Positions 51,067 through 61,621 of a stretch of 64,000 nt of DNA are shown piece after piece. The notes beneath the pieces were generated by a model. It was not told where the DNA came from. It searched no databases and saw only the letters and a program-made list of their open reading frames with translations. Within the stretch, counting starts at the first letter, position 1. Every line of letters begins with the position of its first letter. A program made the position numbers and the translations under genes. Source of the stretch: Xanthobacter flavus (GTDB taxonomy: Bacteria > Pseudomonadota > Alphaproteobacteria > Rhizobiales > Xanthobacteraceae); contig NZ_JAGGML010000001.1 in NCBI RefSeq assembly GCF_017875275.1, positions 2,377,001 through 2,441,000 on the forward strand, written 5' to 3'.

Positions 51067-51849
51067 TCACTCCGCCACCCAGCCGCCGTCGATCTGCTGC
51101 ATGGAGCCGGTGATGGACCGGGCGTTGTCGGAGCACAGGAACACCGCAAGCGCCGCCACTTCCTCCACCGTCACGAATTCCTTCGTGGGCTGGGCGGCGA
51201 GAAGCACGTTCTTCTTCACCTCTTCCTCGGTCATGCCGCGCGCCTTGGCGGTATCCGGGATCTGCTTCTCCACCAGGGGCGTCCAGACGTAGCCGGGGCA
51301 GATGGCGTTGCAGGTGATGCCGAAGGTCGCGGTCTCGAGCGCGGCGGTCTTGGTGAGGCCGGCGATGCCGTGCTTGGCCGAGACGTAGGCGGACTTGAAG
51401 GGCGAGGCCACCAGCGCATGGGCCGAGGCAGTGTTGATGATGCGGCCCCACTTCTTCGCCTTCATGCCGGGAATGGCCGCGCGCATGGCGAAGAAGGCCG
51501 CCGACAGGTTGATGGCGATGATCATGTTCCAGGTGTCGATCGGGAATTCCTCGATCGGCGCCACGTGCTGGATGCCGGCGTTGTTGACCAGGATGTCGCA
51601 GGCGCCGAGCTCGGTCTCGGCGAGCTTCACCATGCCTTCGATCTCGTCCGCCTTCAGCATGTTGGCCGCCGAATAGAGCGCCTTCACGCCGAAATCGCTC
51701 TCGATGGCGGCGCGCTCCTTCTCGATGGCGGCGGCGTCGCCGAGGCCGTTGATGACGACGTTCGCGCCTTCCTTGGCGAAGGCCCGCGCATAGGCGAGGC
51801 CGATTCCGCTGGTGGACCCGGTGACGACGGCGACCTTCCCCTTGAGCAT
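51067..51849 (-). CDS. bdhA: 3-hydroxybutyrate dehydrogenase
   Basis: 260 residues of the classical short-chain dehydrogenase family. VTGSTSGIGLAYARAFAKEG at the N terminus binds NAD, NNAGIQHVAPIEEF is the family-typical loop, and the catalytic Ser-Tyr-Lys lies in NTASAHALVASPFKSAYVSAKHG (Y and K three apart). The sequence pattern of IQHVAPIEEFP and the WGRIINTASAHALVASP stretch is characteristic of D-3-hydroxybutyrate dehydrogenase, which turns 3-hydroxybutyrate to acetoacetate in PHB use. ATG 51849. Confidence 0.93.
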   Translation of the reverse strand: MLKGKVAVVTGSTSGIGLAYARAFAKEGANVVINGLGDAAAIEKERAAIESDFGVKALYSAANMLKADEIEGMVKLAETELGACDILVNNAGIQHVAPIEEFPIDTWNMIIAINLSAAFFAMRAAIPGMKAKKWGRIINTASAHALVASPFKSAYVSAKHGIAGLTKTAALETATFGITCNAICPGYVWTPLVEKQIPDTAKARGMTEEEVKKNVLLAAQPTKEFVTVEEVAALAVFLCSDNARSITGSMQQIDGGWVAE

Positions 51850-55665: not shown

Positions 55666-56112
55666 CTAGGGCTTGAGGCAGACCGCCACCACCTGCTTCA
55701 CCGGATGCAGACATTCCACCTCGGTCTTGTCGCCGCGCGCCGAGAACACCGCGATGTGCTGCAGGCCGCGATCGGTGTTCACGCAATAGCCGCCGATCAC
55801 GCTTTCGCCGGTCTCGCACGAGGCAAGGCAGCCGGCCTCCGGGCAGGCCGCGGCGCGCAGCGTGATGTTGGCCGCGCCCGCCGCACCGGCGGCTCCGGCC
55901 GGGCCGGCCGGACCCTGGGCGCCCTGCGGACCGGCCGGGCCAGCGGGACCGGCGGGGCCTGCCGCACCCGCAGGACCAGCGGGACCGGCGACACCGGCCG
56001 GACCTTGCGCGCCTGCCGCACCCGCGGGGCCGGCCGGGCCGGGCTTGCCCTCGAAACAGGCGGCAAGGCTCAGCGCCAGGGCGAGACCGATTGCGGCTTT
56101 CATCATTCTCAT
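55666..56112 (-). CDS. collagen-like lipoprotein
   Basis: 148 residues. A type II signal peptide ([14 protein letters not shown], lipobox LAAC) predicts lipid attachment at the cysteine near residue 21. About 20 consecutive Gly-X-Y triplets follow, mostly GPA and GAA. The C-terminal domain of about 65 residues carries six cysteines ([21 protein letters not shown]), probably three disulfides. Bacterial collagen-like proteins form surface trimers. A GGGGG tract lies about eight bases before ATG 56112; two later ATGs are possible. I know no function for this one. Confidence 0.85.
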
Positions 56113-56246
56113 ATGCGCGACCCCCATGGACCTTCTGATTGGTGCGCCATGGTGGCGCCTTACCTTGCGGGATGCAAGCGGCCAGAGCGTCGGCGCGGCG
56201 GTGAAAACATGATCCGGCTCAGGGGTTTGCTGGTCGGCCGTCGGGA

Positions 56247-56690
56247 TCAGCCGCGCGCCTTCACCAGGGCGCGCGTCGTCTCCTGAAGCCGCAGCGCCAG
56301 GTCACGCAGCACGGACCGAGCGAGGGAGGGCGTCTTGTCCAGCAGCGAAAGGAAGAGGTCCGAATCCATGCGCAGCACGCTCATGGCCTCGCCCGCGCGC
56401 ACCGTGGCGCTGCGCGCCTCGCCGGTGAGCACGCCCATCTCGCCCACCACGGTATCCTTGGAGAGGCGGGTGATCTCGTGGGTGGCGCCGCCCGCCGTCA
56501 CCTCGATGACGGCGGTGCCGTCGAGAATGACATAGGTGGCATCGGGCGCCTCGCCCTGATGGAACAGTACGTCGCCCGGCGCCACGTCGAGCCGCGTCGC
56601 GGAGAAGGCGAGCAGCCGGAGCTGGCTCGGCTCCAGATCGCGGAACATGGGGATGCGGGAGAGGACGCGCGCCTCGTCTTCAATGCTCAT
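56247..56690 (-). CDS. single-domain cyclic-nucleotide-binding protein
   Basis: 147 residues, almost entirely one cNMP-binding domain: FRDLEPSQLRLLAFSATRL, GDVLFHQGEAPDATYVIL and the phosphate-binding cassette GEMGVLTGEARSATVRA with its Glu and Arg. These residues indicate a working cAMP/cGMP site. There is no helix-turn-helix, so it is not a Crp-type transcription factor. It begins 21 bases after the ABC protein stop and lies two genes downstream of an adenylate cyclase, so it is the likely cAMP receiver of that cassette. Confidence 0.92.
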   Translation of the reverse strand: MSIEDEARVLSRIPMFRDLEPSQLRLLAFSATRLDVAPGDVLFHQGEAPDATYVILDGTAVIEVTAGGATHEITRLSKDTVVGEMGVLTGEARSATVRAGEAMSVLRMDSDLFLSLLDKTPSLARSVLRDLALRLQETTRALVKARG

Positions 56691-56711
56691 GACCTGATCC
56701 TTGTCGCTCCC

Positions 56712-59372
56712 CTACGTCCCCGTGGCGGCGAGTTCCGCCCCCTCGATGCGCTCGACCTGCCCGTGGGCCAGCACGATCACCTGTGTGAACAGGTCGAGCG
56801 GCTCGGCGGCATCGAGCACGACCAGCGTCGTGGCTCCCGCCCGGCTGGCGAGCACGCTCTCGATCAGCCGGCTCTGCTCGGACGGCGCCAGCGGAACCAG
56901 AGCGTCGTCGATGATGAGCAGGTCGGGCGCCGCCAGGAGGCAGCGGGCGAGGGTCAGCTTGCCGCGTTCGGCGGCCGAGAGCGGCAGGCCGCCTTCGCCC
57001 AGCGCCACATCCAGGCTCAGCCGCTGCACCTGGGCGATGAAGCCGTCCTGCGTCAGGCACGCGCGCACCACCTCGTCCACGACGGCGGCGGCGCCCGCGC
57101 GGTCGGCGGCGATGCGGCCGAACAGCAGATTGTCGCGCACGGTCAGCGCCCGGCAGTAGCTGTCCGGCTGATAGCGCGCGAGCGGGGTGCCGGACACCGC
57201 CTTCAGGTGGGCGAGCTGCGCGCGCGTGGCGAGTGCCCGCTGCTGCCACTCCTCGTCGATGAGGCCGAAGCGGTGGCGCGGCTCGCAATAGCGACCGGCG
57301 ACGCGCAGCAGCAGCGCGCGCTCGTCCGGCGCCAGCGCGTCGCCAGCGCCGGTGCCTGCATGGGCGAGCAGGGCGCGCGCTGCGGTCATCTCCTCGGCGC
57401 GCAGCAGGCCCTTGGTGTCGATATCGGCGATGGCCTCCGCCCCGCCGGCGAGCTCGGCGAGGGTGCGCAGGGCGCGAAGGCCGAGCCCCGCCAAATCGTA
57501 GGCGATCCCGAGCCGCTCCAGCTCAGGCATCAGCCCGGGATCGGACAGGAGCGAGGCGGCGCCGCGGGTGTCGTTCAGCGGGGCGGCGAACAGGATGTTC
57601 TCCGCCAGCGTCATGAAGCGGTTGAAGGCGGCGAACCGGAACGGCTCGATCAGTACGCGGCCCGTCTCCTGCTGGCGGCGGGAGATGGCATCGGTGACGG
57701 CGGCGCGGGCGGTCACGATGCGTTCGGCCAGCGCCGGGCTCGCCTCCGGGTCGAGCCGGCGTTCGAGGCCGAGCCTTACCACGAGGTCGCCGAGCCCGGC
57801 GAGGGCAAGGGCGGACAGGATCGACCGGTCGAGCTGGGCGGCGTCGGCGAGGTCGGAGGGCTCGGGCTCGGGCTCGGTGGCGCCCGCGGCCGGCCGGCCG
57901 GGGTGGCGCTCCAGCGCGCACAGCATGTTCTCGCGCAAAGAGGTGTTGAGGACGATGGGGTCGCCGCCCGCATAGGCGACATGCCGGCCGATGACGGATT
58001 CGGGCACGCTGGAGAGGTCGTGCCCGCCGATGCGCACCGAGCCGCTGAAGAGCGAGATGGCCCGGCCGCAGACGCGCGCCACCGCATGCTTGCCGCCGGC
58101 ATCCGGCCCCTTGAGCGCCACCGCCGTGCCCGCCGGCACGTCGAGGCTCACGCCATCGAGAAGGATGCTGCCGGCCGGGTCGACAACGCCGAGGTCGGCG
58201 ATCTTCAGACCGCCGTCGAAGGCCACGCCCTCCCAGCCCGTGTCATCCTGCGAGCCCTTGGGCCAGACTTCCTGCGTCTCGAGATAATAGCGGGCGAAAT
58301 CGTAGCGCACCTGCGCCACTACCCGCTTCTCGTCCCACTCGATCAGCTCTTTCAGCGGCTCGGGGATCTGGCCATAGGCCGCGACCACCGCCACCAGCTG
58401 GCCGATGTTGATGGCCCCCGTCAGCGCCAGCCAGCCGCCGACCGAATAGAAGACCAGCGTCGGCACGTCCGACATCAGCAGGTTCAGCACCCGGTCGACG
58501 AAATTCTGCCGCTTGAGGTCGAGGCTCGCCTCGGACACCACGGCGAGCCGGCCGTCCACCGCCGCCCGCTCCCACGGGCTGGTGGCGAAGCCGTGGACGA
58601 GGGGCAGGCGCTCGATGCCCGACATCACCCTCTTGCCGAGCGCCACCGCCTCGCGCTGGTAGATCTGCAGCTTGGTGGCATTGTCGCGCCGCTGGATGCC
58701 GAGCAGCACGTAATTGAGCGCGAGGATGCCGAGGGCGCAGCCGCCCAGCGCCGCGTTCTGGGTGAAGATGAGCAGCGTCGCCGACCCGATGAGGCCGGCG
58801 GACTTGAGCGGCTGGGCGAAAGCCATGCCGGCGAAGGGGGAGATCGGCCCCACCTCGAACCGCAGCATGTTGCCCACTTCCATCGCCTTGCTCTTCATCG
58901 GCGCCTCGGGGCGCAGGCGCTGGATCACGTCGAACAGCTGGCGGCGCAGCTCCACCAGGATGCGCTCGCCGAGGCGTGCCTTCGCCATTTCGATGAGGCG
59001 CGAGATGTGCTGCTGGATGAGTTGCAGCGCGAACAGCAGCGCCGCGAGGCCGGCGAGGAGCCCGAAGGCCGAGACCTCGTAACCGGTCAGGTCGATGATG
59101 ACCCCGCCGCCCAGGAAGTCCGGCCAGGCGAGATCGAAGTCGAACAGCTTGGGCACCGTCCCGCCGATGGAATCGGTGACGCCGTTGACGATGAGGCGAG
59201 GCAGTTCCAGCGAGGCGTAGTTGAACGGCAGCAGCAGCAGGACGAGGGCGAAGAGCTTGACGTGGGCGGCGGGCTCGGCCCGCCACAGATAGGTGAGCAC
59301 ATCGCGCGGGAGCGCCTCCCGCGTCGCCGGGGCCGTTCCACCGTGGGGGGAGGCTCGATCCGTGCCGTTCAT
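56712..59372 (-). CDS. ABC transporter-type protein with degenerate, expanded ATPase domain
   Basis: 886 residues. An ABC exporter-like membrane part (about 35-345, with hydrophobic stretches near 40, 105, 190, 215 and 305) is followed by a nucleotide-binding domain. Walker A reads GPDAGGKHA (near 423) in place of GxxGxGKST, the signature is LSAAERGKLTLAR (near 799) in place of LSGGQ, and Walker B is LLIIDDAL (near 819), with D where the catalytic E should be. About 300 residues separate Walker A from the signature instead of about 120. Three versions of the motif RENILFG occur there. Start GTG 59375 is also possible. Likely partner of the flanking cyclase and cNMP-binding protein. Confidence 0.88.
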   Translation of the reverse strand: MNGTDRASPHGGTAPATREALPRDVLTYLWRAEPAAHVKLFALVLLLLPFNYASLELPRLIVNGVTDSIGGTVPKLFDFDLAWPDFLGGGVIIDLTGYEVSAFGLLAGLAALLFALQLIQQHISRLIEMAKARLGERILVELRRQLFDVIQRLRPEAPMKSKAMEVGNMLRFEVGPISPFAGMAFAQPLKSAGLIGSATLLIFTQNAALGGCALGILALNYVLLGIQRRDNATKLQIYQREAVALGKRVMSGIERLPLVHGFATSPWERAAVDGRLAVVSEASLDLKRQNFVDRVLNLLMSDVPTLVFYSVGGWLALTGAINIGQLVAVVAAYGQIPEPLKELIEWDEKRVVAQVRYDFARYYLETQEVWPKGSQDDTGWEGVAFDGGLKIADLGVVDPAGSILLDGVSLDVPAGTAVALKGPDAGGKHAVARVCGRAISLFSGSVRIGGHDLSSVPESVIGRHVAYAGGDPIVLNTSLRENMLCALERHPGRPAAGATEPEPEPSDLADAAQLDRSILSALALAGLGDLVVRLGLERRLDPEASPALAERIVTARAAVTDAISRRQQETGRVLIEPFRFAAFNRFMTLAENILFAAPLNDTRGAASLLSDPGLMPELERLGIAYDLAGLGLRALRTLAELAGGAEAIADIDTKGLLRAEEMTAARALLAHAGTGAGDALAPDERALLLRVAGRYCEPRHRFGLIDEEWQQRALATRAQLAHLKAVSGTPLARYQPDSYCRALTVRDNLLFGRIAADRAGAAAVVDEVVRACLTQDGFIAQVQRLSLDVALGEGGLPLSAAERGKLTLARCLLAAPDLLIIDDALVPLAPSEQSRLIESVLASRAGATTLVVLDAAEPLDLFTQVIVLAHGQVERIEGAELAATGT

Positions 59373-59434
59373 CACGGCTTTTCTGCAGGCGGTCTAGCGT
59401 GTTGGCAAGGGGTAACGATTGCCGGCCGGCGGGC

Positions 59435-61621
59435 TCAGCCGGAAGCAGCAGGCGCGGCCGCCGGGTCCGCCGCACCCCGGCACCTCTCGGCATACAGGCC
59501 ATAGAAGCGGGAGAGCCGGGGCGGCGCGCTCGCCGCGAGCGCCTCCGCGAGCGCCGCCGCCTCCCCGAAGCGGCCGGCGCCGTAGGCGGCCATCAGCGCG
59601 CCGTGCCGCTCCTCCAGCCGGGAGAAGTCGTCCGACCGGGAAAAGTCGGGGGCGCCCGCGAGGAGGTAAAGCTGGCTCGCCTTCGACTTGCCCTTGAGCA
59701 TGAGGAGATCGGCTTCGAGGAAGGCGAGGTCGCCCGCCGCCTCGCGCGTCGCCTCGGAGACGAGGATGTCCACCCGCATGGACTTGGTGGCGCCCTCGAT
59801 GCGGGAGGCGAGGTTCACGTCGTCGCCGAGGCAGGAATATTCGAGCCGCTGCGCCGAGCCGAGATTGCCCACGCAGCAGGGGCCGGTGGCGAGCCCGATG
59901 CCGCAGCGCACGGGGTGCCACGGCCGCCCCTCCGCCTCCGCCGCCCGGAGCCACTCCGCGTTCAGCGCCTCCAGCCGCGCCGACATGGCGAGCGCGCACA
60001 GCGCGGCGTTGCGGGCGTGGGCGGCATCGTCCACCGGCGCGTTCCAGAAGGCCATGATGGCGTCGCCGATATATTTGTCGATGGTGCCGCCGTGGGCGAG
60101 CACCACCTCCGTCATGGGCGTGAGATAGGCGTTCATGAAGCGGGTGAGGGCCTGGGCGTCCATGGTCTCCGACAAGGAGGTGAAGTCGCGCAGGTCGCAG
60201 AACAGGATGGTGATCTCGCGGGTCTCGCCGCCCAGCACGAGGCGTTCCGGGTTTTCGGCGAGGCGCTCCACCACCTTGGGCGAGACGAAGCGGCCGAACA
60301 CAGAGCGCACCCACTTCTTCTGCCGCTGCTCGTCGCGATAGAGGGCGAGCACGCCCATGCCGTAGATTGCGAGCACCGCCGCCCCCGGCCCCATGGGATC
60401 GAGCAGCAGATCGAAGCGGGTGAAGGCCAGCCACGCCCCCGCGCCCAGCGCCGCCACCACCACGAGTCCGAGCGCCCCGGCCACGGGCGCCGAAACCCGG
60501 GGCAGGGCCAGCGCCAGCAGGAGGCCGAGGAGGCCGGTCAGCACGATCTCCGCCCCGCGCGCCCAGTCCGGCCGCACGAGGCGCGCGCCGGCGACGATGT
60601 GCTCGATGAGCTGCGCCTGGACTTCCACGCCGGGCACGGCGGCATCGAGGGGCGTCGCCCGCGTGTCCATCAGCCCCGGCGCGCTGGAGCCGACGAGGAG
60701 GATGCGCCCCTCCACTTCGGCGGGCGCGACCTTGCCGTCCAGCACATCGGCGGCCGAGAGGAAGCGGCGGGGATCGGTGGGGGTGAAGCGCACCCGCACC
60801 TCGCCCGAGGCATCGGTGGGCACGTCGAGGGCGCCGATCTTCACCGCCGTGATGCCTGTCTTCGTGCCGAACGCCTGGTCGCCGCTGGCGTTGGAGGCAC
60901 GCACCACATAGGTGGACGCGCCCTGCGCCACCCGGAGCGCCTCCGCCGACAGGCTCGGCACCAGCTTGCCGTCGAGGCCGAGGAGGATGGGCACGCGGCG
61001 CACCACCTGATCGCGGTCGGGCAACCAGTTCAACGCGCCGATGCCCTGCGCGGCTGCCGCCAGCTCCGGCAAGGGCGCGACGGCTCCGGAAAAGCGCGGC
61101 ACGAAGGCGCGGGGGTCATCGCCCGCGCTGGCCATGCCCCATTTCTCCGGATAGGCGGCGCCCTTTCCGTGGGTGAGGATGGCGCCGAGCACGGAGGGTG
61201 TGGCGGCCAGCGTCGTGGCGAGCTGCCGGTCGGAACTGTCGCGCCCGGCCAGCGCCGCCTCGGCCGGGGCGCGGGCCTCCGCCGGCAGGAGCTTCACGAC
61301 GGCGGCGGGATCGAGCCGGTCGGGTTCGGAGAACACCATGTCGAACGCCACCGCCGCCGCACCGAGGCTCGTGAGCTTCTGCGTCAGCTCCGCCACCGTT
61401 GTGCGCGGCCAGGGCCACTGACCCACGCGGGCGAGGGAGGCGTCATCCACGTCCACCACCCGCACCGGCAGGTCAGGGTCATACGCGCGGGGCGCGGCGC
61501 GCTGGTAGAGGTCGAACAGGCCGTTGCGCAGGTCAACGAGCGGCGCAGGATCGGCCCCCATCACCAGAAGGCCGGCGGCAAGGGGGCCGCCGACGGCGAG
61601 CCAGTAGAGGCGGGACCACAT
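59435..61621 (-). CDS. CHASE2-domain class III adenylate/guanylate cyclase
   Basis: 728 residues. One membrane helix at the N terminus, an extracytoplasmic CHASE2 sensor (about 30-335), three membrane helices (about 350-425), then a class III cyclase domain. The metal aspartates lie in FCDLRDFTSLSE and KYIGDAIMAFW. The lysine of TIDKYIGD and the aspartate of SCLGDDVNLASRIE fit ATP rather than GTP as substrate, and Asn and Arg of VNLASR are the transition-state residues. All catalytic residues are present. It is the first gene of the cyclase/ABC/cNMP-binding unit, 62 bases before the ABC gene start. Confidence 0.92.
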   Translation of the reverse strand: MWSRLYWLAVGGPLAAGLLVMGADPAPLVDLRNGLFDLYQRAAPRAYDPDLPVRVVDVDDASLARVGQWPWPRTTVAELTQKLTSLGAAAVAFDMVFSEPDRLDPAAVVKLLPAEARAPAEAALAGRDSSDRQLATTLAATPSVLGAILTHGKGAAYPEKWGMASAGDDPRAFVPRFSGAVAPLPELAAAAQGIGALNWLPDRDQVVRRVPILLGLDGKLVPSLSAEALRVAQGASTYVVRASNASGDQAFGTKTGITAVKIGALDVPTDASGEVRVRFTPTDPRRFLSAADVLDGKVAPAEVEGRILLVGSSAPGLMDTRATPLDAAVPGVEVQAQLIEHIVAGARLVRPDWARGAEIVLTGLLGLLLALALPRVSAPVAGALGLVVVAALGAGAWLAFTRFDLLLDPMGPGAAVLAIYGMGVLALYRDEQRQKKWVRSVFGRFVSPKVVERLAENPERLVLGGETREITILFCDLRDFTSLSETMDAQALTRFMNAYLTPMTEVVLAHGGTIDKYIGDAIMAFWNAPVDDAAHARNAALCALAMSARLEALNAEWLRAAEAEGRPWHPVRCGIGLATGPCCVGNLGSAQRLEYSCLGDDVNLASRIEGATKSMRVDILVSEATREAAGDLAFLEADLLMLKGKSKASQLYLLAGAPDFSRSDDFSRLEERHGALMAAYGAGRFGEAAALAEALAASAPPRLSRFYGLYAERCRGAADPAAAPAASG

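Follow-up and report, generated by a model that had tools for sequence, protein, structure and literature searches.

Bacterial cyclic AMP (cAMP) has mostly been studied through CRP-type transcription factors. What, then, could the signal serve where a nucleotide cyclase is encoded beside a membrane protein and a small cyclic-nucleotide-binding protein in which no DNA-binding domain is recognized? This question is raised by three adjacent genes in a stretch of 64,000 nucleotides of the Xanthobacter flavus genome (contig NZ_JAGGML010000001.1, positions 2,377,001 to 2,441,000 of the forward strand), hereafter the window. In order along the minus strand, they encode a CHASE2 class III nucleotide cyclase of 728 amino acids (window positions 59435..61621); an ABC-type membrane protein of 886 amino acids with a degenerate nucleotide-binding domain (56712..59372, with an alternative GTG start possible one codon upstream); and a stand-alone cyclic-nucleotide-binding (cNMP) protein of 147 amino acids (56247..56690). 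The open reading frames (ORFs), their coordinates and shared strand, and the intergenic gaps of 62 and 21 bases had been proposed in an earlier sequence-only reading and were all borne out by an ORF check, with family assignments from Pfam. A single transcript is plausible, because a sequence scan of both gaps found no minus-strand promoter-like or terminator-like site. On balance, we favor the view that the three genes form an inner-membrane effector module for cAMP.

The most constant part of this arrangement is the pair of ABC and cNMP genes. Loci outside the genus were sought with a profile built from the ABC protein only, with neither the cNMP protein nor the cyclase in the query, and the best 80 of 377 confirmed matches plus 13 further loci gave a set of 93 (here and below, L-numbers denote loci or proteins and G-numbers genomes, with G000 the window's own genome). 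As L030, L033, L034, and L035 duplicate L043, L045, L044, and L046, 89 loci are distinct, and 88 of them are assessable, L046 being ended by a contig edge. The cNMP gene adjoins the ABC gene on the same strand as a separate frame in 81 of the 93 loci, is nested in a longer reading frame in three more (L052, L054, and L084, scored as adjacent), and is fused to it in five, so that the two are adjacent or fused in 86 of the 88 assessable distinct loci. In the fusions the cNMP part is C-terminal. Four of them belong to one clade (L071, L075, L103, and L122); the fifth, L039, lies elsewhere on a long branch with an uncertain place on the ABC tree, and from these sequences we count at least two fusion events. 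The ABC loci are mostly alphaproteobacterial, some being labeled Betaproteobacteria or Burkholderiales, and with this profile the family was detected in 99 of the 297 genomes sampled from the order. The widespread pair looks like a direct, non-transcriptional output for cAMP.

Within the genus, the two genes also share their fate. Among 14 Xanthobacter genomes (the window's own included), a full-length ABC homologue occurs in nine, the cNMP protein in the same nine (at least 83% identity), and the cyclase in 12 (at least 67% identity). All three genes stand in one row in seven of the nine ABC-carrying genomes, the remaining two (G006 and G008) being broken by contig ends between the genes, and none of the three was found in G003 or G013. 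In G005, G007, and G010, the cyclase is in place and the neighbors on the other side are the same (a helix-turn-helix [HTH] gene, ispG, and others), yet the ABC and cNMP genes are both missing; the gaps between flanking matches measure 162, 470, and 527 bases, and nothing in them resembles the pair apart from fragments at chance level. Because these three genomes keep the site and the cyclase and lack both pair genes, the pair appears or disappears as one block next to the cyclase. The locus is syntenic among ordinary genes across the genus, and base composition is ordinary. Among the matches listed, the closest named relatives are those of Xanthobacter, and the ABC gene was not found in the listed genomes of other genera of the same family group (11 in one listing, 10 in another). 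An adjacency confined to this strain, which had been named as grounds for abandoning the proposal, is thus not what we see: the unit spans the genus, and the ABC-cNMP pair reaches far beyond it.

The cyclase joins a CHASE2 sensor domain (residues 17-368, 60518..61573 on the minus strand; Pfam PF05226, E 8.9e-58) to a catalytic domain (residues 467-653, 59663..60223, same strand; PF00211 [Guanylate_cyc], E 2.7e-20). Class III cyclases act through two metal-binding Asp residues, a Lys and an Asp or Thr that contact the purine, and a transition-state Asn and Arg. The assertion that all catalytic residues are present held up: the window protein has both domains, the metal-binding D476 and D520, the purine Lys K516, the transition-state N603 and R607, and S596 at a position where, we assume, Asp or Thr is usual in the family. 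Ser occupies this position in 12 of 39 aligned cyclase rows, the window's included, and K516 and S596 are presumably residues of the purine type. No other class III cyclase was found in its own genome (a whole-genome PF00211 search up to E 10, with other cyclase classes not searched), the next match having an E of 0.09 over 18 positions only. The pair often adjoins diverse cyclases and here adjoins the sole class III cyclase found, a pattern suggestive of a route, not yet described, for cAMP action at the membrane. Some Xanthobacter genomes (G006, G008, G010, and G011) carry a second CHASE2-type cyclase, 36-37% identical, which in G008 and G010 contains in-frame TGA codons.

How often a cyclase accompanies the pair elsewhere was read from a profile grown from the catalytic domain of the window's cyclase, which marked 56 cyclase frames, spread over 44 of the 93 loci (41 of the 89 distinct). 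Across the 81 non-Xanthobacter loci, cyclase density 1.3-4 kb downstream of the ABC center is 11.1 per 100 kb (23 frames, 18 of them on the same strand), against 0.5-3.9 in the five other distance bins (3.9 at equal distance upstream and 0.5-3.1 further out). As genome-wide background, PF00211, a stricter profile than the one behind these neighbor counts, gave 194 matches in ~100 Mb from 21 genomes that were partly picked for having a neighbor cyclase and serve as background only. In the genomes of L092 and L100, likewise partly chosen for a neighbor cyclase, the single PF00211 match is by its coordinates that neighbor. The architectures are varied, comprising CHASE2 forms, 2Fe-2S-cyclase, response regulator-cyclase, zinc ribbon-cyclase-AAA-TPR, and forms without other clear domain, and on the ABC tree the neighbor-cyclase label changes at least 21 times when "none" is counted as a state. 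In part of the loci, for example L040, a metallo-beta-lactamase-fold protein lies between the cNMP protein and the cyclase.

A CHASE2 cyclase as the fixed partner of the pair was considered and rejected: within 4 kb, only Xanthobacter and L071 (where the genes lie tail to tail) have this type, with more distant CHASE2-cluster cyclases at L090, L091, L094, and L104. Of the adjacency of three families that had been anticipated across genomes, the ABC-cNMP pair and an enrichment of class III cyclases are therefore real, whereas CHASE2 is not a constant component. Because the neighbor cyclases outside Xanthobacter are mostly of other types, CHASE2 sensing is a local feature. The earlier idea of an outside signal that acts through CHASE2 and cAMP to gate the ABC protein has to be narrowed to match, its sensing step being local and about half of the loci having no cyclase nearby.

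If the cyclase makes cAMP, is there a protein at the locus equipped to bind it? In the 147-residue partner, cNMP_binding (PF00027, E 2.6e-18) is the sole Pfam family above the cut-off, and the Pfam scan found no C-terminal HTH DNA-binding domain of the kind that marks CRP/FNR regulators; its phosphate-binding cassette, GEMGVLTGEARSATV (residues 83-97, 56400..56444 on the minus strand, located by alignment of relatives), is intact, so the small protein is as it was first described. Cassette conservation is high across 81 aligned relatives (three duplicates among them), with G83 kept in 81, E84 in 77, R93 in 77, and A95 in 76. The best short match in the Protein Data Bank (PDB), 5d1i, is a cyclic nucleotide-binding protein. 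The C-helix carries T138 and T139, which we take to correspond to T127 and S128 of CRP. A Ser or Thr of this helix decides cAMP specificity, according to the accessible part of a study of Pycsar proteins (PMC11224242), in which PycTIR has an Asn at an apparently equivalent position, for uracil. Among 87 family members, the C-helix pair is Thr-Thr in 45 and Thr-Asn in 24, and the base-reading residue 139 is Thr in 46 and Asn in 30; given the Asn of PycTIR, some members may recognize a different nucleotide.

The rest of the genome also bears on which protein could receive the signal. Eleven PF00027 matches were found in it, five of which look by eye like Crp/Fnr proteins carrying a DNA-binding tail. 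None of these five keeps the cassette Glu and Arg, both of which the window's cNMP protein retains, and so a receptor for cAMP other than Crp seems to be needed in this organism. With one class III cyclase found and no Crp/Fnr-like protein with a canonical cassette, the role of cAMP in this genome should be genetically tractable. Other cNMP-domain proteins are encoded here as well. L157 (G000 C1:2341742-2342170, ~91 kb from the three genes) is another free-standing cNMP protein that lacks an HTH domain, with a PRPAT-type cassette and 29% identity to the window's protein, and in L160, L165, and L166, the cNMP domain accompanies a glutaminase-STAS-, a thioredoxin reductase-, and a SpoIIE-like protein, respectively (labels assigned by eye). 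Since parts of the cassette are kept in L157 and L166, and less clearly in L160 and L165, the window's cNMP protein is not the sole possible cAMP receptor; L160, L165, and L166 are additional candidates for a non-transcriptional one.

A further link between cyclase and pocket comes from loci in which one or both have decayed. We tabulated 35 loci that have a cyclase at most 4 kb away and whose cNMP domain could be read (among them the window and six other Xanthobacter rows; L046 and L105, in which no cNMP was found in the locus, omitted) and called a cyclase intact if it had D476, D520, N603, and Arg or Lys at 607, K516 not being demanded. Both partners are intact in 24 loci (seven of them Xanthobacter), both are altered in six (L079 and L082 of Ancylobacter; L078; and L092, L093, and L100 of the Bosea group), and the cyclase alone is altered in five; no locus combines an intact cyclase with an altered cassette. 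The Thr-Thr C-helix follows suit, being present in 19 of the 24 loci whose cyclase is intact versus 2 of the 11 whose cyclase is altered, and in none of the six with both altered. A Fisher test on the cassette gives p 2.8e-4, a value that overstates the case since the six decays sit in one clade. By descent, the coupled decay may amount to one or two events, and the link it draws between cyclase and pocket is suggestive.

Several of these observations weigh against the effector module. The examined stretch holds no cyclase in 49 of the 93 loci, and the pairs on Sinorhizobium (S. meliloti) pSymB and R. etli pA likewise lack a nearby one; L105 and L118 have the ABC gene without a cNMP gene. All six coupled decays fall in a single seven-row clade, together with L047. 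The cassette is altered in L047 and, outside that clade, in L119 (where E84 is D), and neither has a neighbor cyclase, while five loci join an altered cyclase to an intact cassette (one of these, L115, a fragment match). Thr-Thr is found in only 45 of the 87 members and is missing in five loci whose cyclase is intact, so some members may bind a ligand other than cAMP. Finally, in HetC, the one ABC exporter with a cNMP domain for which we found such a test, the domain bound ppGpp and not cAMP, as far as the accessible part of that report goes (PMC10986499).

The loci with no cyclase nearby, the ppGpp bound by HetC, and the variable C-helix, together with the cyclases that persist without the pair in G005, G007, and G010, speak for the alternative that the ABC and cNMP proteins are one system and the cyclase an independent neighbor, with the cNMP protein answering another ligand, as in HetC, or cell-wide cAMP. 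We regard this as unlikely, though not lightly set aside. Against it stand the density peak directly downstream of the pair, filled by cyclases of diverse architecture, and the finding of no class III cyclase in this genome other than the neighbor; moreover, the cassette and, as we read its positions, the C-helix match those of CRP, and cyclase and cassette decay together.

Pfam confirmed that the middle gene encodes an ABC-type membrane protein (ABC_membrane, and ABC_tran in two stretches); a long insert and the degeneracy of its ATPase motifs had gone unnoticed. The exporter-type membrane domain (residues 107-333, 58374..59054 on the minus strand, as are the features that follow) scores E 5.5e-6 and 26.7 bits with PF00664, against a cut-off of 28, and is also recognized by a profile match to ABC exporters of known structure. 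The nucleotide-binding domain is not contiguous. Its first part (residues 405-513, 57834..58160, by Pfam and alignment) contains the P-loop GPDAGGKH, in which H replaces S/T, and its second part (residues 741-880, 56733..57152, likewise) contains the signature LSAAER and the Walker B motif LLIIDD and has no H-loop His. The insert of ~240-265 residues (57147..57875) holds extra copies of a Q-loop/helical module (TLAENILFA at 588-596 and EPRHRFGL at 697-704), seen by profile self-match. This stretch is absent from L023, an ordinary exporter of the same genome, and the matched nucleotide-binding blocks are 281 residues apart here versus 16 in L023. In hhalign comparisons, residues 540-650 and 690-800 give profiles that align with one another (98.9%, E 1.3e-17, 84 columns), and the Q-loop segment matches the 690-800 profile more weakly (85%, E 6e-6) and that of 540-650 marginally (42%). 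Judged by these profiles, which match each other within the insert and resemble the Q-loop segment less strongly, the helical module is at least doubled and perhaps tripled. The arrangement is shared by the family: across 90 aligned ABC rows, the distance from Q-loop to signature is 311-373 residues, and N592, R701, N748, and G752 are invariant.

Could such a protein still function as an ATP-driven exporter, with the cNMP subunit adjusting its rate? We find this quite improbable. It would account for the membrane part being conserved among relatives, for the match of the family profile, in membrane and nucleotide-binding segments alike, to ABC exporters in the PDB, and for the P-loop Lys that the window protein retains. 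That Lys is followed by H, however, and the protein reads LSAAE where LSGGQ is the norm, has D in place of the catalytic Glu, and lacks the H-loop His, in addition to having the large insert between Q-loop and signature; among the 90 aligned rows, the P-loop Lys is kept in 22, the catalytic Glu in six, and the H-loop His in four. We infer that ABC catalysis has been lost, and because the ATPase motifs are degenerate, the protein is probably no ordinary ATP-driven pump. It would represent a case of an ABC ATPase domain rebuilt through multiplication of a helical module and loss of catalytic motifs.

A Pycsar-like anti-phage system, in which a cyclic pyrimidine nucleotide activates a membrane effector through the cNMP domain, is scarcely credible: the gene logic is similar, 24 of the 87 relatives have a Thr-Asn C-helix that could suit it in part of the family, and PADLOC models match the cyclase catalytic domain (PycC, best 93.9 bits) and the cNMP domain of the cNMP protein (TIR effectors, ~53 bits), but these matches reach shared domains only, for which reason we rejected a defense system, and the ABC protein has no PADLOC match, the cyclase bears CHASE2, ordinary genes flank the locus in conserved order across the genus, T139 stands where CRP has S/T and PycTIR has N, and the presumed purine-type K516 and S596 are, compared by eye, unlike the UTP (Y50/D94/R97) and CTP (F100/R142/Q144) residues of PycC given in the accessible part of PMC11224242.

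In the effector module that we favor, the CHASE2 cyclase would make cAMP upon a signal from outside the membrane, as its domains imply, and the stand-alone cNMP protein would bind it through a cassette whose E84, R93, and A95 are matched to CRP by alignment. The near-universal adjacency and the gene fusions argue strongly that the ABC protein has the cNMP protein as a subunit, and binding of cAMP would then shift the state of the ABC protein. Because the helical module is multiplied and most ATPase motifs are lost, the ABC protein is better pictured as a regulated membrane effector than as a normal pump, perhaps a gated flippase, a channel, or a regulator of another membrane machine. Such a module has a fair chance of being a new class of cAMP receptor. 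A fuller version, which we hold only tentatively, is that bacteria possess a membrane-bound cAMP receptor in which a degenerate ABC protein, with its multiplied helical module, is combined with a detachable cNMP subunit, that diverse class III cyclases have repeatedly been recruited to it, that the cyclase is itself a structural subunit, and that the module can be rewired to a cAMP-free form. The last two elements are suggested by the Ancylobacter/Bosea clade, in which the cyclase and the cNMP pocket both lack key residues and still lie side by side.

No description of the combination of ABC protein, cNMP protein, and cyclase was found in open-licence literature, in agreement with the initial statement that no system of this composition was known. 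The nearest described protein found is HetC of Nostoc PCC 7120, a peptidase-containing ABC exporter in which, by the accessible part of its report, the N-terminal, ppGpp-binding cNMP domain is needed for function and a catalytic ATPase residue is essential (PMC10986499). Both are ABC exporter-type proteins joined to a cNMP-type domain, but in the window's ABC protein Pfam found no peptidase family, the ATPase motifs are degenerate, the cNMP part is separate or, in fused relatives, C-terminal and has a canonical cassette, and the genes are linked to cyclases. TIGR03896 (bacteriocin-type transport-associated protein) also describes a cNMP-domain protein assigned by name to transport, and the window's cNMP protein scores 64.6 bits with it, far below the curated cut-off of 161 bits; the model has 317 positions against 147 residues. 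TIGR03896 proteins contain two cNMP domains and are mainly cyanobacterial. CFTR and SUR are degenerate ABC proteins that act as a channel or a channel regulator, and they offer a parallel for an ABC fold used in regulation or gating instead of pumping; being eukaryotic and with an unrelated partner, they serve as an analogy only. Pycsar systems include membrane effectors as well. They resemble the present locus in encoding a cyclase together with a cNMP-domain effector and differ, as far as the accessible part of PMC11224242 describes them, in having pyrimidine cyclases, a cNMP domain and TIR effector in one protein, other base-reading residues, and no ABC protein; here the cNMP and effector parts are separate proteins in most loci and fused in five. 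The CHASE2 class III cyclases CyaD1, CyaD2, and CyaK of Sinorhizobium meliloti raise cAMP on an outside signal, with transcription through the CRP-type Clr as the output reported in the accessible part of PMC13001267. They share their type with the window's cyclase, but none of the five Crp/Fnr-like proteins of the X. flavus genome retains the cassette Glu and Arg, so that a different sort of receptor seems to be called for there.

As to what the module might act on, glycosyltransferase frames from four clusters were seen in 58 of the 93 loci, mostly upstream of the pair, and for relatives with glycosyltransferase genes nearby, a step involving a surface glycan or glycolipid is the likeliest target. 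No glycosyltransferase genes were seen beside the pair in Xanthobacter, and a single GT28-like protein (from L041) had no match in the window's own genome, in a search that had no positive control. A connection of smb20804/smb20805 with capsular polysaccharide (accessible part of PMC5539429) was set aside, as the pSymB records used carry no annotation by which these locus tags could be tied to the pair. On pSymB, the ABC gene reads as one frame in S. meliloti 2011 (L154) and as two overlapping frames in strain 1021 (L155).

Two further neighbors deserve mention. Short-chain dehydrogenase frames resembling that at 51067-51849 in the window, a likeness judged from the sequence start only, lie within ~10 kb of the ABC gene in nine of the 93 loci, none of them Xanthobacter (L042, L047, L050, L053, L068, L070, L076, L099, and L103), hinting at wider synteny. 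Directly adjoining the three genes, at 55666-56127, is a small collagen-like protein of Gly-x-y repeats (Pfam Collagen, 5.1e-9), whose C-terminal part is conserved at the same site in L037 and L169.

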